Origin: Leptotrichia trevisanii DSM 22070 | GTDB lineage: Bacteria > Fusobacteriota > Fusobacteriia > Fusobacteriales > Leptotrichiaceae | DNA: 64,000 bases | Direction of reading: 5' to 3' | Assembly (NCBI RefSeq): GCF_000482505.1 | Contig: NZ_AXVL01000011.1 | Coordinates: 1-64,000 of the forward strand | Shown: positions 10,876 through 46,558 of the stretch, in pieces | Layout of the letters: the number at the start of each line of letters is the position of its first letter | Numbering within the stretch: position 1 is the first letter of the stretch | Translations under genes and position numbers: made by a program | Notes under the pieces: model-generated | Told to the model about the DNA's origin: nothing | The model's input: the letters and a program-made list of their open reading frames with translations, nothing else | Database searches by the model: none

Positions 10876-11445
10876 ATGTATCATATAAAAGATGAGGAAT
10901 TTTTAAGGGGAAAAGTTCCGATGACAAAAGAGGAAATCCGTTTTGTAAGCATTGGAAAAATGGAGCTGGAGGAGGATGACGTGTGCCTTGACATCGGTGG
11001 CGGAACTGGTTCTGTGAGCATAGAAATGGCAAGATTTGCACGAAACGGAAAAGTTTTTGTAATTGAGAGAAATGATGAGGCAGTTGAGCTAATTCATAAG
11101 AATATAGAAAAATTTGATTTGAAAAATGTTACTGTAATTAAAGGAATGGCTCCAGATGGACTAAAAGAATTAAATACAAAGTTTAATAAAATTTTTATTG
11201 GAGGTTCAGCAGGAAATCTGGTTGAAATTATAAAATATTCTTATGACAATCTTGTGGAAAATGGAATTCTGGTACTAAATTTTATTGTGCTGGAAAATAT
11301 ATCTACGGCTGTTGAGGAACTCAAAAAATATGATTTTAAAGATGTGGATATTTGTCAGTTAATCGTGAGTAAAAATAGAAAGGTTAAGGATTTTAACATG
11401 ATGATGGCAGAAAATCCGATTTATGTAATTACTGCGAAGAAATAA
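10876..11445 (+). CDS. cbiT: CbiT-like precorrin/cobalt-precorrin decarboxylating methyltransferase
   Basis: 189 aa SAM-dependent methyltransferase. The segment VPMTKEEIRF at residues ~14-23, motif I LDIGGGTGSVSIEMARFA (~38-56) and FIGGSAGNLVEII (~110-122) match CbiT, which methylates C15 and decarboxylates the C12 acetate side chain in corrin synthesis. No other cobalamin gene is in the window, so it may be an orphan in a partial pathway or a repurposed methyltransferase. It has its own AAGGAG and is bracketed by terminators. Confidence 0.8.
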   Translation: MYHIKDEEFLRGKVPMTKEEIRFVSIGKMELEEDDVCLDIGGGTGSVSIEMARFARNGKVFVIERNDEAVELIHKNIEKFDLKNVTVIKGMAPDGLKELNTKFNKIFIGGSAGNLVEIIKYSYDNLVENGILVLNFIVLENISTAVEELKKYDFKDVDICQLIVSKNRKVKDFNMMMAENPIYVITAKK

Positions 11446-11469
11446 TAAATAAAAATAATAATTTAAATT

Positions 11470-11512
11470 TGTGTAAAACTCTAAAATTTAGAGAATTACA
11501 CAATTTTTTTTT
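11470..11512 (+). terminator. Strong intrinsic terminator after cbiT
   Basis: A long symmetrical stem: arms TGTGTAA and TTACACA enclose CTCTAAA and TTTAGAG, followed by nine or more T residues. It separates cbiT from the following island. Confidence 0.85.
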
Positions 11513-11539
11513 AGACAGACAAAATATGTCCTTTATAAA
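11512..11539 (+). promoter_or_regulatory. Promoter for the first PD-(D/E)XK-related gene
   Basis: TAGACA (11512-11517), 16-nt spacer, TATAAA (11534-11539), directly after the cbiT terminator. A second TATAAT (11543-11548) lies just downstream but has no good -35. Confidence 0.45.
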
Positions 11540-11583
11540 AAGTATAATGTAAAAATATTATGAAGGTAAAGGAGATAATTATT

Positions 11584-12684
11584 ATGAGTAATTTAAAATT
11601 AACTGAAAATGATGCTTTTTACAATATGAAATTTGATAATGATATTTTTTTGTATTGGATGTTAAAATGGTTAAAAGTCGATACTACAAATAATAGTAAT
11701 AAAAAAGCTTTAAAAAATATGGCAAAAAAATTCGTTGAGGAAATTTTAGGACAGAAACTGAATACGAAAGATATTGAAATATGTTATTCTAATTTTTATA
11801 TTGGGAAGGACTATGAGGATTTTATTAATAGAATTCTAAATGAATATACACTTTTATTTATTGTGAATAAAAAGAAAAAGAGCAATAGAAAATATATTTT
11901 TTTCAAATGTTTTGACTACGACGAATTTTCACCATATTTTTTTGAATATAATCAAGAACTAGTTCAATTACTTAAAATATATGAAAATTTAGGAAATAAT
12001 GAGACAGATAAAATAAAAATCGTATACATTACTCCTGATAAAATTTCTAGATATGAAAAAGAAGAAATAGGAGAAAAAATTATTATGTATGACGAAGAAA
12101 AACTTTTAGAATTTTTTAAAACTTTTAAAAAAGACATTGATGACAGTATTTTTGATAGTTATTATAACCAGCTCATGCGAGAAGTAAGTGAAGAAGATTA
12201 TGACTCTTTTAATGTTTCAGCACTATACAGTATTTTGGAGTGGTATTTTGATAAAAAAAGAAAAAATTATGATGTATATAGAAATGATTACTATATAAAG
12301 TGGATAAAAGATGAATTTTTTATAGAATGTATATATAAAAAAAATAAAAATAGAGAATTTGATATACTGTTTGTGTTAAATTGGTTTCATCTTGATGAAT
12401 TACAAGAAGATATGTTTGAATCAGTTCAATGTGAATTAAAAAATATATTTCCAGATTTTCAAAAAATTTATTTGGAAGAAGTTGACTTAAAAGAGAAAGA
12501 AGTTCCATTATTTTATTTAAAAGTAGATAAAGATGCTTCGTTGAGCAAAATAAAGAAAATATTGGATGAAATAACAGAAAAAATAGAAAAATTTAATGAA
12601 GCGAGAGGTAGTTCAAATATAAAAGATGAATACAATAAATATATTAAAGATGAAAGGAAAAAAGGTGGTATTTGGTTTTGGTAA
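11584..12684 (+). CDS. Degenerate PD-(D/E)XK-superfamily-related protein
   Basis: 366 aa from ATG 11584, chosen because AAAGGAG lies about 9 nt upstream and inside the frame opened by the earlier ATG at 11560. Its architecture parallels the protein at 14491-15612: an N-terminal segment (TENDAFYNMKFDNDIFLYWM) resembling SELSQDAFICWLCNWV, a middle region, and a Lys/Glu-rich C-terminal part with similar helical spacing. Where that protein has Asp then Glu-x-Lys, this one has LLFIVNKKKKSNRKYIFFK and no clear acidic triad, so the nuclease centre appears lost. The ending GGIWFW is distinctive. It has its own promoter and is not in the same transcript start as the WYL gene. It could be an inactive partner, inhibitor or antitoxin; this is inference. 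Confidence 0.45.
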   Translation: MSNLKLTENDAFYNMKFDNDIFLYWMLKWLKVDTTNNSNKKALKNMAKKFVEEILGQKLNTKDIEICYSNFYIGKDYEDFINRILNEYTLLFIVNKKKKSNRKYIFFKCFDYDEFSPYFFEYNQELVQLLKIYENLGNNETDKIKIVYITPDKISRYEKEEIGEKIIMYDEEKLLEFFKTFKKDIDDSIFDSYYNQLMREVSEEDYDSFNVSALYSILEWYFDKKRKNYDVYRNDYYIKWIKDEFFIECIYKKNKNREFDILFVLNWFHLDELQEDMFESVQCELKNIFPDFQKIYLEEVDLKEKEVPLFYLKVDKDASLSKIKKILDEITEKIEKFNEARGSSNIKDEYNKYIKDERKKGGIWFW

Positions 12685-12711
12685 AAGATTAGAAAAGAAA
12701 ATTTTGATTAT

Positions 12712-12739
12712 TTGACAAAATAAGAAATAAAGTTATAAT
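12712..12739 (+). promoter_or_regulatory. Near-consensus promoter of the WYL/FtsZ-like/nuclease operon
   Basis: Exact TTGACA (12712-12717) and exact TATAAT (12734-12739) with a 16-nt spacer, 38 nt before the WYL start codon. This is among the best promoter matches in the window and drives three genes. Confidence 0.8.
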
Positions 12740-12777
12740 TAAAGCATAGAATAAAAAAATGTACGAAAGGCTTGATT

Positions 12778-13725
12778 ATGGCGGGAAAAAATCAAAATTC
12801 TGAAGAAAAGTCAATTAGAATACTAAAAATAATAAAAAGGTTGTATCAGAAGGAAATACTAAATGGAACTGATTTAGCTAACGAATTTAACGTTGATATA
12901 AAAACAGTTCAAAGAGATATAGAAACTTTGAGAACCTATTTTTTGGAAGAAAATGGAGCAGAAATAAAGTATTCCAAATCTAAAAAAGGGTATTATCTTG
13001 AAGAAAATAGTGAAAATTCTTTTACCAATGAAGAGCTTTTAGCAATAAGTAAAATTATACTTGAAAGCAGGGCATTTAACAAAAATGAAACTCAAACATT
13101 AATAAATAAGTTAATTAATCACTCATCAGGAAATGACAGAGAAACAATAAAAGGTCTTATCAATAGCGAAAAATCCAACTATATCCCTTTGCAGCACGGA
13201 CAAAATCTGCTCACAGTTATCTGGAATTTAGCACAGCATATAAAAAAACAGGAATTAATACATGTAAATTACACTACAAAAGATAAACAAGGTAAAAATT
13301 ACAATATAAAGCCTTTGTCCATAATGTTTTCAGAATATTATTTTTATTTAATTGCATACATCGAGAACAAAGAAGAGTACCCTGCAATTTTAAGGATTGA
13401 TCGAATTACTAAAATTGAAAATACTGGCAAGAAATTTAAGATTTTGAATTATTCTAAAAAATTTAAAGATGGTGAATTTAGAAAATATATACATTTTATG
13501 CACTCAGGGCCTTTTACAAGAATAGAATTTAAATACAGAGGCTATATCGAGTATGTGCTTGATAAATTTCCAACTGCAGAAATATTGGATGAAAAAATAG
13601 TTAAAGAAAATAATCGGGAAACTACAGTTTATACTCTAAAAATCGAAGTTTATGGAAGTTTTGGAGCGGAAATGTGGCTACGAAGTCAGGGAGATTATGT
13701 TATTGAATACAAAATTTTAAAATAA
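12778..13725 (+). CDS. WYL-domain helix-turn-helix regulator
   Basis: 315 aa. Residues ~8-60 form an HTH_11-type winged helix (GTDLANEFNVDIKTVQRDIE), the central region (~150-235) is a WYL domain, and the C-terminal strand-rich part matches the WCX extension. WYL proteins are ligand-responsive, often nucleic-acid-sensing, regulators that commonly sit next to CRISPR and other defence genes. The start is ATG 12778: AAGG ends at 12770, giving 7-nt spacing, whereas the in-frame TTG at 12772 would be 1 nt away. It is followed after 24 nt by the FtsZ-like gene and most likely controls this operon. Confidence 0.88.
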   Translation: MAGKNQNSEEKSIRILKIIKRLYQKEILNGTDLANEFNVDIKTVQRDIETLRTYFLEENGAEIKYSKSKKGYYLEENSENSFTNEELLAISKIILESRAFNKNETQTLINKLINHSSGNDRETIKGLINSEKSNYIPLQHGQNLLTVIWNLAQHIKKQELIHVNYTTKDKQGKNYNIKPLSIMFSEYYFYLIAYIENKEEYPAILRIDRITKIENTGKKFKILNYSKKFKDGEFRKYIHFMHSGPFTRIEFKYRGYIEYVLDKFPTAEILDEKIVKENNRETTVYTLKIEVYGSFGAEMWLRSQGDYVIEYKILK

Positions 13726-13749
13726 ATTTCTATAAAAAGGAGAAAATTT

Positions 13750-14457
13750 ATGGAAAAAATATCAAAAATAAAAATTATAAGTTTAGGAGAAACAGCTCTA
13801 AGCACTATTGAGAAAGAAATAATTACACATGAAAATATAAGCATTATTACAATTAAAAATGACTACAAAGATTTAAAAATAAATTTTCAAGATACAGATG
13901 TAATTTTGATAATTTTAAATACATATTTCGAAAATGATAAAAATTTTGCCTTAGAAATAATCAGAAACACTGAAAAAAACGACATTTTTACTGGCATTTA
14001 TGATATTGGAAATGGCTATACTGACCTATTTGATTCAAAAACAAACTTTATCATAAAATGCAAATCTACCGAAGATTTAAAAAATGGAATCAACGGAATA
14101 ACAAAAACTTTAACAGTAAAAGGAATGGTTACTCTTGATTTAGCTGACTTAAAAACTGTATTTCAAAAAACCTCAAAATCTTTCGTAATTTTTGAAAAAG
14201 GAAATTTAGAAACTTTTGATGATTTCCTACAAAATCTAAAACTAAAGCTGGAAACTTTTGATAAAAATAAAACCTATAAAATATTTTTGAATATAACAGC
14301 AGGAAAAAATATCGAATTGACTCAGATAAAAGATATTGCTAAAATAATGACTAATATTCTTAATGAGCGGGCATTTCTTTGGGCACTGCAAATATATCCA
14401 GAAAATGAAAATTTCATAAATATCATTGCTTACATTGTGGAAGATTCAGTTAAATAA
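13750..14457 (+). CDS. Shortened FtsZ/tubulin-like protein lacking the GTP-binding motif
   Basis: 235 aa, versus about 350-400 for FtsZ. The C-terminal half aligns by eye with the FtsZ activation domain: VKGMVTLDLADLKTVF (123-138) matches the LI-x-[VL]-DFADVKTVM element, and LNITAGKNIEL (180-190) matches the LMNITGG-x-[DN]-L element, followed by the predicted terminal strands (NFINIIAYIVED, 221-232). The N-terminal part looks like a collapsed Rossmann-like fold (IKIISLGETALSTIEKEI; DTDVILIILNTYFENDKN). The glycine-rich tubulin signature GGGTGTG, expected near residues 57-63, is absent. I infer a tubulin-fold pseudo-GTPase that might bind FtsZ or another tubulin. It sits between the WYL regulator and the PD-(D/E)XK gene. 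Confidence 0.55.
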   Translation: MEKISKIKIISLGETALSTIEKEIITHENISIITIKNDYKDLKINFQDTDVILIILNTYFENDKNFALEIIRNTEKNDIFTGIYDIGNGYTDLFDSKTNFIIKCKSTEDLKNGINGITKTLTVKGMVTLDLADLKTVFQKTSKSFVIFEKGNLETFDDFLQNLKLKLETFDKNKTYKIFLNITAGKNIELTQIKDIAKIMTNILNERAFLWALQIYPENENFINIIAYIVEDSVK

Positions 14458-14490
14458 ATTAATTAATATTATAGAAAGAAGGGATTTAGA

Positions 14491-15612
14491 ATGGAAAGAA
14501 ACAATATTTTTAATTTTGCAACATCAGAGCTGTCACAGGATGCTTTTATATGTTGGTTATGCAACTGGGTAAATTTTGATGATAATAATTTATCAGAAGA
14601 TGAGAAAAAATTAAAAGAGCTTGCAACTGACTTTATTGAAAAAATGTCAGATGAAAAACTTGGAGATAGAAAAGTAAATATAAAAAGACAATATCAGAAA
14701 ATAGATGTATTATTGGAAATTCAGAACAAAACAGAATTTATAACTAAGGAAAATGAGAAAAATCCTGTAGTAGATATATATGTAATAATAGAAGATAAAG
14801 TGGGAACAAGTTTACATAGTAATCAGATTGAAAAATATACAAAATTAATATCTAAAAAAAATGAAAAAGAAAATGAAAGTAAAGCTCAAATAAAAACAGT
14901 ATATTATAAAATATACGATGAAGATAACATGGAAAGATTAGGGAAAAATGGTGTAAATGTAATATTTAAAAGAGAAAAAATTTTAGAATTATTAGGAAAA
15001 TACACAGATAGCATTAATAATCCTATATTTGAAAATTATTGTAATTATTTGAGTAACATAGAAACAGATGTAAATTCATATAAAAAAAAGAATTTAGAAG
15101 ATTGGAATTCAAATTGTTATATTGGATTTTTTAAAGAATTAAAAAGAGAAAAAGATTATCTAAAACATGCTTCTGGAAGAGAAAATGACTGTAGTTGGAG
15201 TTATGTGAATAACTCGTCAGGAGGATTTATGGGAATGTGGTGGTTTCCATTAAGTGAAAATGAAATTAATAAGTTGACGGAAACTTCTGGTGAAGACATT
15301 TATTTACAGATAGAACAATATAATCAGAAAAATATAATTGCGATAAAATATTCAGTTCCTAAAAGAAATATAAATAATAAAGAACTTTCAAAAGAAGACT
15401 TTGAAAAGAAAGTAAAAAATGCTTCTGAAAAACGTAAGGAAATTTTCACTAAATTAGAAAACATGGTATCAGATTTTCAAAAAAAATATTTTAGAGCAGG
15501 ACAATATATGACAGTAGGATATTTAGAATTCGAGAGCACTGAAGATTGTAAAAAGAAAATAAAACTTCTTCAAAAGACTTTACAAACTTACGTTGATAAT
15601 TTAAACAAATAG
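14491..15612 (+). CDS. PD-(D/E)XK nuclease superfamily protein
   Basis: 373 aa. The N-terminus NIFNFATSELSQDAFICWL is typical of a PD-(D/E)XK family found in defence-type loci. Candidate catalytic residues are Asp72 (QKIDVLLEI) and Glu101/Lys103 (YVIIEDKVGTSLHSNQ), with Glu13 in the first helix. The remainder is Lys/Glu-rich with a central W-rich segment (SWSYVNNSSGGFMGMWWFPL) that could bind a partner or substrate. It is the last gene of the WYL operon, 33 nt after the FtsZ-like gene, with an AAGGG Shine-Dalgarno. A nuclease is the best reading; the substrate is unknown. Confidence 0.65.
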   Translation: MERNNIFNFATSELSQDAFICWLCNWVNFDDNNLSEDEKKLKELATDFIEKMSDEKLGDRKVNIKRQYQKIDVLLEIQNKTEFITKENEKNPVVDIYVIIEDKVGTSLHSNQIEKYTKLISKKNEKENESKAQIKTVYYKIYDEDNMERLGKNGVNVIFKREKILELLGKYTDSINNPIFENYCNYLSNIETDVNSYKKKNLEDWNSNCYIGFFKELKREKDYLKHASGRENDCSWSYVNNSSGGFMGMWWFPLSENEINKLTETSGEDIYLQIEQYNQKNIIAIKYSVPKRNINNKELSKEDFEKKVKNASEKRKEIFTKLENMVSDFQKKYFRAGQYMTVGYLEFESTEDCKKKIKLLQKTLQTYVDNLNK

Positions 15613-15640
15613 TTTATAATCAAATTTCAAAATACAAAAA

Positions 15641-15698
15641 AGAGGAAACTCCCTCTAATAATATAATTAATAAATCATATTATAGAATGGTTTCCTCT
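15641..15698. terminator. Bidirectional terminator between converging operons
   Basis: Arms AGAGGAAAC (15641-15649) and GTTTCCTCT (15690-15698) are exact complements, with a ~40-nt AT-rich loop that itself contains short complementary segments. A runs precede and T-rich sequence follows, so it can serve both the plus-strand nuclease gene and the minus-strand transporter gene. Confidence 0.6.
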
Positions 15699-40775: not shown

Positions 40776-41555
40776 TTAAAATAAATGTATATGTGCTTTA
40801 CTTCCATATAGTAAAACGAATGTCATAATTGGCATAAAAGGTATAAAAAGAAGCATACTCTGCATTATCTTCATTTTAAAAAGCCTAAATTTTACTTTTG
40901 GAATCTGCTTTTTCTGAATTATGTCTATCATGTTGTCCACAATTTCTGAGATTCTGCTATTTTCTATCATTATATCTGTTTGCGAAGATCCTCCTTTTAA
41001 GTTTTTCTCAGGCACAAAACAGATTTCCTTTTTTCCATCAAGAAGATAGATGTGAGATTTAGATCTGATTATTCGAGTGCCAAATAGAGGAAATAACTCA
41101 GTACCCCAGTTATAGCCTTTAATATTCAGTAATTTTCCATTTAAATAAAAATCTTCATTTATTATTTCAAGTGTATTTTCTGTTTTTTCTTTTGGATAAT
41201 AGTATTTGTTCCCGTATGTTATACTTATTACAGCACAGCTAAGTAAAAGCAGTATTCCAATTTTTATCCCGAAAAATATTAATATTTCTGTTATGGTAAA
41301 GCAGATAATATTCAAAACAACTGCTTTTTTCAGATTTTTAGGAACTTCATAAAATACCGTTCCTGTTTCTGTTCTTTCACGGTAAACTGTATCAGCTGCT
41401 AAAATTCCAAGTTTTATTTTCTCTTTAGCTTCATCTTCATGCCTTTGAATAATCTTACGTAAATTTTTTTTGATTTTTCTATTTTTCATATCAAAAATAA
41501 TTATTATACTCAAAACTGCAAAATATATTAATGCAAAAACTAAACTATATAGCAT
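40776..41555 (-). CDS. Membrane protein, paralogue of 41693-42460
   Basis: 259 aa. N-terminal membrane helix, a cytoplasmic linker with RHEDEAKEKIKLGILAADTV, a pair of helices (AVVLNIICFTITEILIFFGI; GILLLLSCAVISI), then a soluble beta-rich domain (FYLNGKLLNIKGYNWGTELF; LLDGKKEICFVPE) and a C-terminal helix. The soluble part has the look of a PH-like domain, but I do not recognise the family. It shares most positions with the neighbouring gene, the product of a tandem duplication that also copied a DUF6683-like gene. Confidence 0.6.
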   Translation of the reverse strand: MLYSLVFALIYFAVLSIIIIFDMKNRKIKKNLRKIIQRHEDEAKEKIKLGILAADTVYRERTETGTVFYEVPKNLKKAVVLNIICFTITEILIFFGIKIGILLLLSCAVISITYGNKYYYPKEKTENTLEIINEDFYLNGKLLNIKGYNWGTELFPLFGTRIIRSKSHIYLLDGKKEICFVPEKNLKGGSSQTDIMIENSRISEIVDNMIDIIQKKQIPKVKFRLFKMKIMQSMLLFIPFMPIMTFVLLYGSKAHIHLF

Positions 41556-41568
41556 TTTAAACTCCCTG

Positions 41569-41690
41569 AATTAATAAGATATTCCTTGCAATGTTATATG
41601 AATTCTGTCAGCATCCACTTTTAAAATTGTTTTCAGTACCTGTTTTTATAAAGATAATATTGTTATACACCATATATGCTACCATTATTT
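41569..41690 (-). pseudogene. Remnant of a DUF6683-like gene
   Basis: Read on the minus strand, the end encodes KQVLKTILKVDADRIHITLQ then GISY-stop, almost identical to the C-terminus of the protein at 42477-43139 (KQILEAILKVDADRVRITAQ then GISY). The beginning encodes AYMVYNNI, matching the AYMAYNNIS core. About 80 residues between these parts are missing and the two pieces are in different frames. It occupies the place expected for the second copy of the duplicated pair. Confidence 0.8.
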
Positions 41691-41692
41691 TA

Positions 41693-42460
41693 CTAAAATA
41701 AATACATATATGCTTTGCTTTTATACAAAGAAACAAGTATCACAATTGATATAAAAAGTAAAAAAAGAAGTATGCTCTGCATTTTTTTCATTTTAAAAAG
41801 TCTGAATTTTACTTTTGGAATCTGTCTTTTCTGGATTACATCAATAATATCATCTATAATTTTAGAAATTCTGTCATCTTCTATTATTATATCTACTTGA
41901 GATCTTTTTAACTGTCTTTCAGGTACAAAACAGATTTCCTTTTTGCCATCAAGAAGATAAATATGAGATTTAGAGTATATTATTTGAGTTCCAAATATGG
42001 GAAACAATTCAGTTCCCCAGTTATAGCCCTTAATATCCAATAATTTTCCATTTAAGTAAAAGTCTTCATTTATTATTTCAAATGTATTTTTTGTTTTTTC
42101 TTTTGAATAATAATATTTATATCCATATATCATACTTATTACAGCACAGACTATTAAAAGCAATATTCCAAGTTTTATTCCCAGAAATATTAATATTAGC
42201 ATTATGGCAAAGCAAATAAGATTTAAAACAACTGCTTTTTTCAAATCCTCCGGCACTTCATAAAATACTCTTCCTGTTTCTGTTCTTTCACGGTAAACTG
42301 TATCAGCTGATAAAATTCCAAGTTTTATTTTCTCTTTAACCTCATCTTCCTGTTTTTGATTAATTTTACGAAGATTTTTTCTGTTTTTTATTTGTTTCAC
42401 ACCAAAAACGATTAATATAACAGCAACTGAAAGATATACTAATGCAATAATTGAATTCAT
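41693..42460 (-). CDS. Membrane protein, paralogue of 40776-41555
   Basis: 255 aa, same design as its neighbour: an N-terminal helix, the KQEDEVKEKIKLGILSADTV linker, two further helices, a beta-rich soluble domain (FYLNGKLLDIKGYNWGTELF) and a last helix (SILLFLLFISIVILVSLYKS). It is 16 nt downstream of a secreted DUF6683-like gene and likely cotranscribed with it. A role with that secreted protein is inferred only from linkage and coduplication. Confidence 0.6.
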   Translation of the reverse strand: MNSIIALVYLSVAVILIVFGVKQIKNRKNLRKINQKQEDEVKEKIKLGILSADTVYRERTETGRVFYEVPEDLKKAVVLNLICFAIMLILIFLGIKLGILLLIVCAVISMIYGYKYYYSKEKTKNTFEIINEDFYLNGKLLDIKGYNWGTELFPIFGTQIIYSKSHIYLLDGKKEICFVPERQLKRSQVDIIIEDDRISKIIDDIIDVIQKRQIPKVKFRLFKMKKMQSILLFLLFISIVILVSLYKSKAYMYLF

Positions 42461-42476
42461 TTCAGTCCCCTCCGTA

Positions 42477-43139
42477 TTAATAAGATATTCCTTGAGCTGT
42501 TATACGGACTCTATCAGCATCCACTTTTAAAATGGCTTCAAGTATTTGTTTTCCTGCCTCCCTTAATTGAGCTGTAGTCTGTGAATTAGGATTGCTCTGA
42601 TTTAAGGACTGTCCCACAGCCAAAGTCATTCCAACCATAACCATCTGGTCGTACATACTTTTTTTCTCCCTGTTGCTCATTCCGTCAAAAAATCCGCTGT
42701 TTTCAAGATGAGCCTTGAACTGATCTGCCATAGGTTTCACATAGTCATCATTAAGACTTATATTGTTATATGCCATGTATGCTCCTGCTATTACAGCCGC
42801 TACTGCTGAAGACAAATCATTTGTCGGTATTCCTACAGAATGGGCTACCTGTGGGAAAGAATCATACAGCTGTTTTAATGATGCCCTTATTTCCTTTTGC
42901 TGGCTTTTTGGATAAGTTGCAACCAATGTTTCCAGTCCATCGGTACTTCCGTCCTGTGTGAAAGTAAGTGATGATTTTCCGTAAGATTTACCTTGTGAAG
43001 ATGAAGTTGTATTTAAAAGTTCCTGCATTATTTCATTTTTAAACATATCGCCATAATCAGCATGAGCTTGTCCTGAAATTCCAAGTCCCAGTGCTAAAAT
43101 ACTTAAAAGAAATATTTTTTTCATAAATTTTGCTTTCAT
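42477..43139 (-). CDS. Secreted DUF6683-like protein
   Basis: 220 aa. Signal peptide of about 27 residues ending GQAHA. The mature core contains the conserved block VAHSVGIPTNDLSSAVAAVI and AGAYMAYNNISLNDDYVKPM, then MVMVGMTLAVGQS and the C-terminal KQILEAILKVDADRVRITAQ. AGGAGG precedes the ATG. Two further paralogues and one remnant are in this island. The family role is not established; the helical core suggests a periplasmic or outer-membrane associated protein. Confidence 0.75.
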   Translation of the reverse strand: MKAKFMKKIFLLSILALGLGISGQAHADYGDMFKNEIMQELLNTTSSSQGKSYGKSSLTFTQDGSTDGLETLVATYPKSQQKEIRASLKQLYDSFPQVAHSVGIPTNDLSSAVAAVIAGAYMAYNNISLNDDYVKPMADQFKAHLENSGFFDGMSNREKKSMYDQMVMVGMTLAVGQSLNQSNPNSQTTAQLREAGKQILEAILKVDADRVRITAQGISY

Positions 43140-43172
43140 AACTGTTCCTCCTGTAATTTTTTTATTTTACTG

Positions 43173-43907
43173 TTAATTTAAATTAGATAATTTTTTCTTG
43201 TTTTCCTCATATTTTTTACTATTAGTAGATTTTAACATTTCATTATCCTTTTTGACATTTTCTAAAGCTATGTTATACAAAAGGGGATTATAGTTTTCTT
43301 TTAGAAATTTTTGATTAATTATAAAAGTTTCTACTGCTTTTTCATTATTTCCTGACAATCTGTAAGCCTGTATCAAATTTTTTTCAATTATTTCTGAAAG
43401 TACATTATTTAATACTTTAATATCCTTATATTCAGCATAACTCTGTTTGCCATGTTTTAAAATACCTATTGCTTTTTCATAATATTCAGCACTTTCCTTA
43501 TATTTTTTTTCATAAAAGAGAATATCTGCCATCACTCTGTAACCATAGGAATAATCAGGAGCATTTTTTAAAAATATTTCTGTAATTTCCTTTGTTCTTT
43601 TAAATTCACGGTTTTGATAAAATGCCACAGTTACATAATTACGGTATTTCTCAAGATTTTTGCTGTCCTTTAAAAATTCCTCTTCCGCTTTTTTTATAAC
43701 TTCTTCTGATGAAACTTCTTTCTGCTTTTCTATTTCAGAGCTGTCTTTTTCTGAATTTTTTTTATTTTCTTCAGTTTTGTTTTTATCGCTCTGGCTTGTA
43801 TCAATATTATTACCTTTTTTTGTTTTATTTTGTTCCTGTTTCTTATTGCAGCTAAAAACAGCAAAAACTATCATAGCTATTATTAAAATTTTTTTCAATT
43901 TTATCAC
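43173..43907 (-). CDS. TPR lipoprotein
   Basis: 244 aa. Lipobox AVFSC (~16-20), then a Lys/Glu-rich low-complexity linker (~20-75), then TPR-like repeats (KFLKDSKNLEKYRNYVTVAF; YGYRVMADILFYEKKYKESA; YRLSGNNEKAVETFIIN). A scaffold for protein contacts in the envelope is plausible. It is 33 nt upstream of the DUF6683-like gene at 42477 and probably in its operon. Confidence 0.65.
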   Translation of the reverse strand: MIKLKKILIIAMIVFAVFSCNKKQEQNKTKKGNNIDTSQSDKNKTEENKKNSEKDSSEIEKQKEVSSEEVIKKAEEEFLKDSKNLEKYRNYVTVAFYQNREFKRTKEITEIFLKNAPDYSYGYRVMADILFYEKKYKESAEYYEKAIGILKHGKQSYAEYKDIKVLNNVLSEIIEKNLIQAYRLSGNNEKAVETFIINQKFLKENYNPLLYNIALENVKKDNEMLKSTNSKKYEENKKKLSNLN

Positions 43908-43992
43908 TTCCCCAATGAATACAGAATTTTTTATGTTTTTTATTTTCTTAACAGTCCTTCTTAAACTTTTGCTTTGTAAATATTGGCTTCAC

Positions 43993-44805
43993 TTAATTTC
44001 CATAATTCTTACCTATCAAAGAAATCAGATATATCATAAAAGAAACATAAATCGCCACTATCGTTAAAAGATGCAATGGATAAAAGAAATAAAACATATA
44101 TTTTGTAAATTTGTTATGAATACCCTGCTTTCCGTTGTAAAGCCATATTATCGGCAGTGAAAATATCGCAAATATCTGTGTTTTTATAAATATTTCATTT
44201 CCAAAAAAGTTAAACGGAAATTCAAGTCCAGGCATAACAAATACGTTTAGAAACACCATTAATACAGCTTGAAATATTATGTTTTTGTAATTTTTCCCCC
44301 TGAAAAAATAGAATATCAGAATAATTGCAATCCCATATCCTAAATAATCACTTCTTGCAAAATGTGCAATTATGATGGTTAAAATACTTATGGCAGCTTT
44401 TACAAAAAATTTTATTATTTTATTCATATTTTCTGATTTTTCCGTCTTTTCCAGTAAATTCATTCCACATAAGGCAATTCCGAAAGTCCATAATACATTG
44501 TTATATGGATAAAATACCATTATTTCTCCTCTTAATGCCAGACTTGCAAAAAGATTGAACGGAATTTCCGAAATAGCTGCAAAAATAAAAATACGTATTA
44601 AATATTTTTTTCTGTTTTTAGTCCTGTAAAATCCTTCCGTAAGCATAAAGGCAAAAATTGGAAAGGCAAGTCTTCCAAGCACATTTAACCATATCTGATT
44701 AGGAAAAAATATATTCCATAAATGATCTGCCACCATAAATGCCATTGCCAGAATATGTAGTGTAAAAGAATTTATCCCTCTAGAAAATATAACTTTTTTA
44801 TTCAT
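43993..44805 (-). CDS. TraX-family integral membrane protein
   Basis: 270 aa with about eight helices. The N-terminus NSFTLHILAMAFMVADHLWN, the LGRLAFPIFAFMLTEGFYRT segment and SEIPFNLFA are characteristic of TraX/Acyl-transferase-3-like proteins. F-plasmid TraX acetylates pilin; chromosomal homologues are of unknown substrate and may acetylate surface proteins or glycans. No conjugation genes are here. Confidence 0.82.
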   Translation of the reverse strand: MNKKVIFSRGINSFTLHILAMAFMVADHLWNIFFPNQIWLNVLGRLAFPIFAFMLTEGFYRTKNRKKYLIRIFIFAAISEIPFNLFASLALRGEIMVFYPYNNVLWTFGIALCGMNLLEKTEKSENMNKIIKFFVKAAISILTIIIAHFARSDYLGYGIAIILIFYFFRGKNYKNIIFQAVLMVFLNVFVMPGLEFPFNFFGNEIFIKTQIFAIFSLPIIWLYNGKQGIHNKFTKYMFYFFYPLHLLTIVAIYVSFMIYLISLIGKNYGN

Positions 44806-44836
44806 TTTTTGCTCCTAATTTTTCTTTTCTGTTAAT

Positions 44837-44861
44837 AAGGGGTAAATGAGCTGAACCCCTT
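44837..44861 (-). terminator. Hairpin between a DUF6683-like gene and traX-like gene
   Basis: Perfect arms AAGGGGT (44837-44843) and ACCCCTT (44855-44861). The T-run is weak on both strands, so termination may be partial. Confidence 0.5.
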
Positions 44862-44896
44862 ATTGTATTTTGCGAATATAAAACTATTCTTTTTAT

Positions 44897-45673
44897 TTAA
44901 TAAACAAGCCCTGATGATGTTATTTTCACTTTGCTTGCATTTACTTTAAGAACACCTTCAAGTACTTCTTTTCCCGCTCTTCTTAATTGAGCGGTAACTT
45001 TTGCATTTGGATTTTGCTGATTTTGGGACTGATTTACAGCCAAAGTCATTCCTATTATTACCATTTGGTCATAAATATACTTTTTATCACTGTCACTCAT
45101 TTTATCAAACTCAGTTACACTTTCTAGAGCTTCCTTAAACTGTTTTGCCATAGGTTTCATATAACTGTCATTTAAACTGACATTGTTATAAGCCATATAT
45201 GCTCCAGCCAATATAGCAACCATTCCTGAAGACAGGTCATTTGTAGGTATTCCTACAGAACGTGCTACTTGAGGGAATGAATCATACATTTTTTTTAGAT
45301 AAATTTTTGCTTCCGCTCTCTGTTTTGACGGATAGTTATTCACAAGATAATCAAGCCCTCTTGTACTTCCATCCGATTTAAAAGTTATTTTGGCTTTTTT
45401 TGCCGGTTTTGGTTTAGACGATGTTTGCGATGATGATGATGATGATTTACTTTTACTGCTTCCTGTACTCTTAGAGCTTGAACTCTTTTCAAGAATATCG
45501 TTGGTACCAGTAACTTGATTGTAATAATCAAATGTTCTTTTTAATGTATCATTTTGTATATGAAAAAGGTTATAGTCAAAATCATATCCTGCAAATGCGT
45601 GTGCAGGTCGCGATACAAATAATCCTGCTCCAATAACTGTTGTAACAAATAGTTTTTTTAAATTTATTTTCAT
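44897..45673 (-). CDS. Secreted DUF6683-like protein with Ser-rich linker
   Basis: 258 aa. Signal peptide to about residue 26 (SRPAHAF), a variable N-terminal part, a Ser/Lys low-complexity linker (SSSKSTGSSKSKSSSSSSQT), then the shared core (ARSVGIPTNDLSSGMVAILA; GAYMAYNNVSLNDSYMKPMA) and C-terminus (VNASKVKITSSGLVY). Adjacent to its closest paralogue at 45782. No element-type promoter of the local regulon is seen immediately upstream, so it may depend on readthrough from 45782. Confidence 0.75.
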   Translation of the reverse strand: MKINLKKLFVTTVIGAGLFVSRPAHAFAGYDFDYNLFHIQNDTLKRTFDYYNQVTGTNDILEKSSSSKSTGSSKSKSSSSSSQTSSKPKPAKKAKITFKSDGSTRGLDYLVNNYPSKQRAEAKIYLKKMYDSFPQVARSVGIPTNDLSSGMVAILAGAYMAYNNVSLNDSYMKPMAKQFKEALESVTEFDKMSDSDKKYIYDQMVIIGMTLAVNQSQNQQNPNAKVTAQLRRAGKEVLEGVLKVNASKVKITSSGLVY

Positions 45674-45781
45674 AATTTTTCCTCCTAAATTGAATTATAT
45701 ATTTTCATTTTTTTGTTTTTTGTTTTTTTTCATTATTACTACATACTGTTATAAAACTTCTTATTTTTATAATTATTTATT

Positions 45782-46558
45782 TTAAAAAGAAAGTCCTGAT
45801 GCCGTTATTCTTACTTTACTTGCACTTACTCCAAGAAGTCCTTCAAGCACCTGTTTACCTGCATTTCTTAACTGAGCGGTAACTTTTGCATTTGGTTTTT
45901 GCTGATTTTGGTACTGATTTATGGTTAAAGTCATTCCTATTATTACCATTTGGTCATATATATATTTTTTATCACTGTCACTCATTTTATCAAAGTCATC
46001 TACACCTTGAAGCACTGTTTTTAACTGATTTTGCATAGGTTTCATATAATCATCATTCAGACTTACATTGTTATATGCCATATATGCTCCTGCTATTGCA
46101 GCTGCCAGTCCTGAAGACAGGTCATTTGTAGGTATTCCTACTGAACGTGCTACCTGCGGGAAAGAATCCTGCATCTGTTTCAGGTATGTTCTTGCTTCTC
46201 CTCTCTGTTTTGACGGATAGTTATTAACAAAATAATCAAGTCCTCTTGTATTTCCGTCCGATTTAAAAGTAATATTTGCTTTTGTTGTTTTTGGGGCTGT
46301 AGTTGAAGTTGCTGAACTTCCCGTTGTTTTTGTAGTTGTTTTTTTAGAATTTGATTTTTTCTTTGAAGAATAATCTCCTTTTTTAATGTGGCTTATTACT
46401 TCACTACCAAGTAAATAATTTCTTGTACTATTTATCACATTGTTTGTATAGTTAAAACTGTCTGACATATCATAATAAAATGCCTGTGCAGGCTGCGATA
46501 CAAATACTCCCATTCCAATAACTGCTGTAACAAATAGCTTTTTTAAATTTATTTCCAT
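45782..46558 (-). CDS. Secreted DUF6683-like protein with Thr-rich linker
   Basis: 258 aa. Signal peptide (MEINLKKLFVTAVIGMGVFV ... PAQAF), N-terminal variable region, Ser/Thr/Lys linker (KKTTTKTTGSSATSTTAPKT), then the family core (ARSVGIPTNDLSSGLAAAIA) and C-terminus (VSASKVRITASGLSF). About two-thirds identical to the neighbouring paralogue over the core. Its promoter carries the direct-repeat element at 46625-46642. Confidence 0.75.
   Translation of the reverse strand: MEINLKKLFVTAVIGMGVFVSQPAQAFYYDMSDSFNYTNNVINSTRNYLLGSEVISHIKKGDYSSKKKSNSKKTTTKTTGSSATSTTAPKTTKANITFKSDGNTRGLDYFVNNYPSKQRGEARTYLKQMQDSFPQVARSVGIPTNDLSSGLAAAIAGAYMAYNNVSLNDDYMKPMQNQLKTVLQGVDDFDKMSDSDKKYIYDQMVIIGMTLTINQYQNQQKPNAKVTAQLRNAGKQVLEGLLGVSASKVRITASGLSF

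Follow-up and report, generated by a model that had tools for sequence, protein, structure and literature searches.

What does a gene for a degenerate FtsZ do between a gene for a WYL-type regulator and a gene for a nuclease, and do these genes form a movable defense cassette? The earlier note on this locus, which lies in a 64,000-nt stretch of Leptotrichia trevisanii DNA (the window), had described three genes separated by 24 and 33 nt, preceded by a near-consensus promoter and followed by a strong terminator. We confirmed the three open reading frames, all on the same strand, and both gaps (Table 1). The promoter proved to be a perfect TTGACA-16 nt-TATAAT and the sole 12/12 match in the region; its TATAAT -10 element is kept at the promoter position in every FtsZL-bearing relative, as well as in genome G017. 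The operon does not start at the WYL gene as had been claimed, however, since the unit begins further upstream with a fourth member, PAR. The claim of a strong terminator also stood only in part. The hairpin there is strong (z -5.5). Its T-tract, however, points to the minus strand, and the sequence rightwards from 15616 is also present in G013, a genome without the cassette; hence, we assign the hairpin to the chromosomal site with its convergent transporter gene, not to the cassette. No RNA families were found at the locus.

Table 1. Features of the cassette and its borders, in window positions.
Feature	Position	Strand	Remarks
Cassette extent	11447..15615	.	Defined against the related genome G013, which is without the cassette
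PAR	11560..12684	+	Degenerate PDX relative, 366-374 aa
Promoter TTGACA-16-TATAAT	12712..12739	+	Consensus; serves WYL-FtsZL-nuclease
HTH-WYL regulator	12778..13725	+	Start ATG 12778; ORF open from TTG 12772
FtsZL	13750..14457	+	FtsZ-derived pseudo-GTPase, 235 aa
PDX	14491..15612	+	PD-(D/E)XK (PDDEXK_4-like) nuclease; exchangeable effector slot
Hairpin	15641..15698	.	Between PDX and convergent transporter gene; T-tract on minus strand

The identity of the first gene was upheld, as its product matches Pfam PF13280 (E=3.3e-8) and HTH_11 (E=6.1e-8), both above gathering scores. As in the BrxR/BREX and CapW/CBASS loci (PMC9122601, PMC9122588), the HTH-WYL gene heads an operon with its own promoter, beside nuclease and restriction genes. 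The cassette departs from those loci in that its WYL protein matched no chain among solved structures at E<=0.01, and thus has no detectable kinship to BrxR or CapW, in that its own promoter bears weak AT-rich repeats only and no convincing operator repeat, and in that its cargo is not a known system. By analogy with BrxR (PMC9122601) and CapW (PMC9122588), on which we modeled WYL repression, the protein is probably a repressor. Inspection of neighborhoods in several species placed the WYL gene at the head of defense genes or adjoining them. Likewise, a second WYL clade, ~47% identical, heads or adjoins NERD-helicase (PADLOC RTasNERD-Hel, E=6e-73), dynamin-like (LeoBC) and AriA-like genes in G000, G007 and G017.

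The FtsZ kinship of the second gene product, FtsZL, was also borne out. Its residues 109-226 match NCBIfam TIGR00065 with E=3.4e-8 and a score of 33 bits, far under the family cut-off of 295 bits; the best match to PDB FtsZ chains reached E=1.7e-7, and a profile-profile match to FtsZ reached E=2e-11. FtsZL shares with FtsZ (TIGR00065 / PF00091 + PF12327) the C-terminal domain and the synergy-loop aspartates, but differs from it in its length (228-235 aa among the copies), in the loss of the tubulin signature GGGTG[TS]G, and in the lack of a C-terminal tail. In place of the GTP-binding motif GGGTGTG, residues 57-65 read NTYFENDKN, and the protein ends at residue 235, just past its match to the C-terminal domain of FtsZ, so that the conserved tail that binds FtsA and SepF is absent. 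D130 and D133 of the T7/synergy loop, which by established knowledge of this motif correspond to catalytic residues D209 and D212 in E. coli FtsZ, are invariant among the FtsZL copies, even in the 48%-identical copy of G011. Because its alignment with the paralogue FtsZ4 (E=2e-9) spans the entire protein, FtsZL is a shrunken FtsZ and not a bare C-terminal fragment. Conservation is no lower in the N-terminal than in the C-terminal half (53% vs 44%), indicating that FtsZL has some role beyond bearing the synergy loop, and dN/dS values of 0.06-0.25 among close copies reveal purifying selection. AlphaFold2 without an alignment performed poorly for both proteins modeled: the single-sequence model of FtsZL was of low confidence (mean pLDDT 49), with only residues 150-235 good, and Foldseek searches with this low-confidence model returned no meaningful match.

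FtsZL stands at the short end of a Leptotrichia FtsZ series composed of canonical FtsZ (365-395 aa, GGGTGTG or GGGTGSG), FtsZ2 (~305 aa, GGATGSG), FtsZ3 (299-325 aa), FtsZ4 (268-284 aa) and FtsZL itself, each of which forms its own clade. FtsZL is highly divergent from all FtsZ paralogues, and its long branch (2.7 changes per column) precludes a firm position in the FtsZ tree. FtsZ2, FtsZ3 and FtsZ4 show a stepwise loss of the GTP-binding signature (G000:C8:53252, G000:C1:63615 and G000:C7:65655, at loci L033, L031 and L032, and relatives). FtsZ2 is present in 13/13 genomes of the genus and in G002, with a conserved neighborhood where examined. The islands of the second WYL clade (L101:1708-9312, L031:8637-15721, L113:6605-12413) are inserted beside FtsZ2 in G000 and G007. 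In G007 and G013, FtsZ3 and FtsZ4 flank a ToxN/AbiQ type III toxin gene (L037:8055-8594, L058:7947-8504), and in G010 an FtsZ3 gene is located directly upstream of the PAR-WYL-FtsZL-PDX cassette (L047:4276-5175).

The assignment of the third gene product, PDX, to the PD-(D/E)XK proteins held for its active site, with D72 and E101-x-K103 present in all aligned copies, but not for its profile score, as the match to PDDEXK_4 (E=0.012, 16 bits) fell under the gathering cut-off of 22.3. A match to PADLOC PDC-S26 gave E=8.7e-6. PAR is homologous to PDX (BLASTP E=5e-7), and the catalytic E-x-K is replaced in all PAR copies; from its sequence we predict PAR to be an inactive nuclease relative. PDX occupies the slot behind FtsZL in six species (G000, G002, G008, G010, G014 and G016), and a Mrr-type protein unrelated to PDX occupies it in four (G006, G007, G011 and G015). 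The latter matches Mrr_cat (E=1.8e-4, 22.0 bits, above the cut-off of 21), and by eye its N-terminus appears EVE/PUA-like. This alternative effector, with its Mrr_cat domain, resembles Mrr-type/EVE-like type IV restriction proteins; the cassette differs from Mrr-type restriction in that the protein swaps with a PDDEXK_4-like one behind WYL-FtsZL. A family-wide search found PDX in seven genomes; the Mrr-type protein was found in five Fusobacteriota genomes, and both lay at this module in every case, while PAR was found in 10/98 Fusobacteriota genomes, solely upstream of this WYL gene. Relatives of PDX also reside on Caballeronia and Cetobacterium plasmids, without an annotated WYL or FtsZ neighbor. 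Whichever protein fills the slot, it presumably acts on DNA.

At a threshold of E<=1e-60, FtsZL was present in 10 of the 98 Fusobacteriota genomes surveyed, corresponding to 10 species in two genera (9/13 Leptotrichia genomes, plus G002 of another genus). A gene of the same WYL family directly precedes it, and a nuclease gene directly follows it, in 10/10 of these species, so that the co-occurrence proposed for this strain extends well beyond it. Neither outcome that the earlier note had named as a refutation, confinement to this strain or separation of the FtsZ-like and nuclease genes, was seen. The linkage, which spans two chromosomal sites and two genera, has a hypergeometric p of ~7e-7 for 33 family genomes, a value that is not corrected for kinship; the species counts are phylogenetically non-independent, several being partly independent through horizontal transfer. 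Since several Leptotrichia FtsZ paralogues are in graded degeneration, FtsZL might be viewed as a decaying ftsZ duplicate that came by chance to lie in a housekeeping operon. We rejected this explanation as improbable in the extreme, given the linkage in all ten species, the purifying selection on FtsZL, and the en-bloc transfer discussed below.

Other modules lack FtsZL. G017, of another genus, carries PAR-WYL-Mrr with 95 nt between the WYL and nuclease genes and no FtsZL, and the WYL gene of G020 adjoins a broken PDX gene, again with no FtsZL, so that the module occurs without it in two genera beyond the two that carry it. The modules of G017 and G020 indicate that the core consists of (PAR)-WYL-nuclease, with FtsZL as an optional insert; among the surveyed Fusobacteriota, FtsZL is an addition limited to Leptotrichia and G002. 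The fixed three-gene system envisaged earlier must accordingly be revised, as PAR is added, the nuclease slot is variable, and FtsZL is absent from two modules.

Individual members of the module are also broken in some genomes, namely FtsZL and PAR in G007, PDX in G014, PAR in G016 and the Mrr-type gene in G011. FtsZL is therefore broken beside an intact nuclease in G007, and the nuclease is broken beside an intact FtsZL in G011 and G014. These independent losses speak against an antitoxin role for FtsZL and against its being an obligatory sensor for the nuclease, and instead fit a pair of distinct effectors controlled by a common switch. A small gene 33 nt upstream of that for the nuclease could encode an antitoxin or immunity protein, but G007 keeps an intact nuclease beside a broken FtsZL and G017 keeps one with no FtsZL at all, and we rejected this role as very improbable. 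We also considered whether FtsZL could work with the nuclease, PAR or the WYL protein in a structural or regulatory role, on a co-opted fold whose link to FtsZ is gone. Its high divergence, its conservation over the whole length and its invariable position between WYL and nuclease are all consistent with such a role; pairing with two unrelated nucleases argues against a specific nuclease interface, however, and the synergy-loop aspartates are still invariant, while G017 and G020 manage without FtsZL. On balance, we regard a partner role as unlikely.

The proposal that the cassette is movable was supported by transfer between species, in several of which it sits in defense-rich islands. G013 shares the left flank with the window as far as 11446 and the right flank from 15616 on, with other DNA between them. 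The module occupies two chromosomal settings, one being the site in the window and the other lying near type I restriction and IS200/605-type genes; type I restriction genes are found near the module in several species, with HsdM and HsdR confirmed. The GC content of the cassette is 24.2%, compared to 30% for the window, and every tested 4.2-kb window in the 64 kb was higher (lowest 24.3%). Between G002, of another genus, and G014, G015 and G016, the dS of FtsZL is 0.007, while that of housekeeping ftsZ is 0.8-1.1. Blocks of 3-8 kb, neighboring genes included, are 97-99% identical at the nucleotide level when G002 is compared with species that have 72-76% ftsZ identity to it. The comparison of G000 with G002 is mosaic, with 63-81% identity through PAR and the N-terminal half of WYL, followed by 90-100% from ~13,400 through FtsZL; within the WYL gene, identity jumps from 74-81% to 98%. 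Thus, the cassette is horizontally spread, AT-rich and mosaic. In G013, the methyltransferase 3' terminus and the DNA downstream of it (window 11404-11513) recur ~1.4 kb away (L103:6278-6384), resembling a target duplication made by insertion; the site may be an insertion hot spot. No copies of the cassette were found in plasmids, phages or viral contigs in a partial search beyond Fusobacteriota, and a GTDB scan with two short patterns returned one locus, in Leptotrichia hongkongensis.

As a tentative reading, we suggest a horizontally mobile, WYL-controlled, defense-like cassette whose FtsZL would act as a chain terminator of FtsZ assembly, and so serve as a second effector beside the nuclease. 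The WYL protein would keep the promoter down until a ligand arising from invasion or DNA damage frees the promoter of it; the nuclease, either PDX or Mrr-type, would then attack foreign DNA, and FtsZL would arrest division. For the latter, a host FtsZ subunit would receive the synergy-loop face of FtsZL on its GTP face, and FtsZL, without a GTP pocket of its own, would be unable to take the next subunit. SulA, MciZ and T7 Gp0.4 cap or sequester FtsZ through the face that FtsZL retains (PMC13423816). FtsZL resembles SulA and MciZ in the proposed halt of FtsZ assembly under stress control and, unlike them, is FtsZ-derived; its action is our proposal. FtsZL may bind host FtsZ, although binding is not assured because the two are only ~28% identical in the C-terminal half. 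The presumed target is phage or plasmid, and phage defense the presumed function.

The retained face could serve in another way. FtsZL might be a bait that mimics the FtsZ surface hit by phage inhibitors, and that either soaks these up or, once bound, licenses the neighboring nuclease. The FtsZ-Gp0.4 complex triggers CapRel-Ebc immunity, and Gp0.4 is predicted to sit on the synergy-loop face, where SulA and MciZ also bind (PMC13423816). Against this, the nuclease occurs without FtsZL in G017 and G020 and beside a broken FtsZL in G007, indicating that FtsZL is not an obligatory sensor, and FtsZL, at its low identity to host FtsZ, may not mimic it well; we therefore consider a bait rather doubtful. 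CapRel-Ebc also ties the FtsZ synergy-loop face to phage defense (PMC13423816), but CapRel, a toxin-antitoxin fusion, relies on the FtsZ of the host cell, whereas the cassette encodes an FtsZ-derived protein. Stated to cover both the chain terminator that we favor and the bait, the locus could possibly represent a new type of defense cassette that brings its own crippled FtsZ, either to cap the polymer and halt division or to bait phage inhibitors of FtsZ, together with a plug-in nuclease slot and WYL control; we advance this formulation with equal caution.

The statement that the locus matches no nameable system agrees with our searches, as PADLOC assigned no system to the cassette and, in the literature searched, we found no paper on Leptotrichia FtsZ paralogues or on a WYL-FtsZ operon. 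Rare FtsZ/tubulin domains have been mentioned in other conflict systems (PMC7159879), and a 2026 study identified host FtsZ as part of a phage trigger (PMC13423816). The link between bacterial immunity and cell division is recent, and a mobile, co-conserved cassette with an FtsZ-derived pseudo-GTPase beside interchangeable nucleases would constitute an independent, genetically tractable case. Modules with PDX or the Mrr-type protein, and with or without FtsZL, offer a natural panel for what the FtsZ piece adds.

Elsewhere in the window (40776-46558), several similar genes for secreted proteins bearing an SVGIPTNDLSS motif lie near a duplicated pair of membrane-protein genes.
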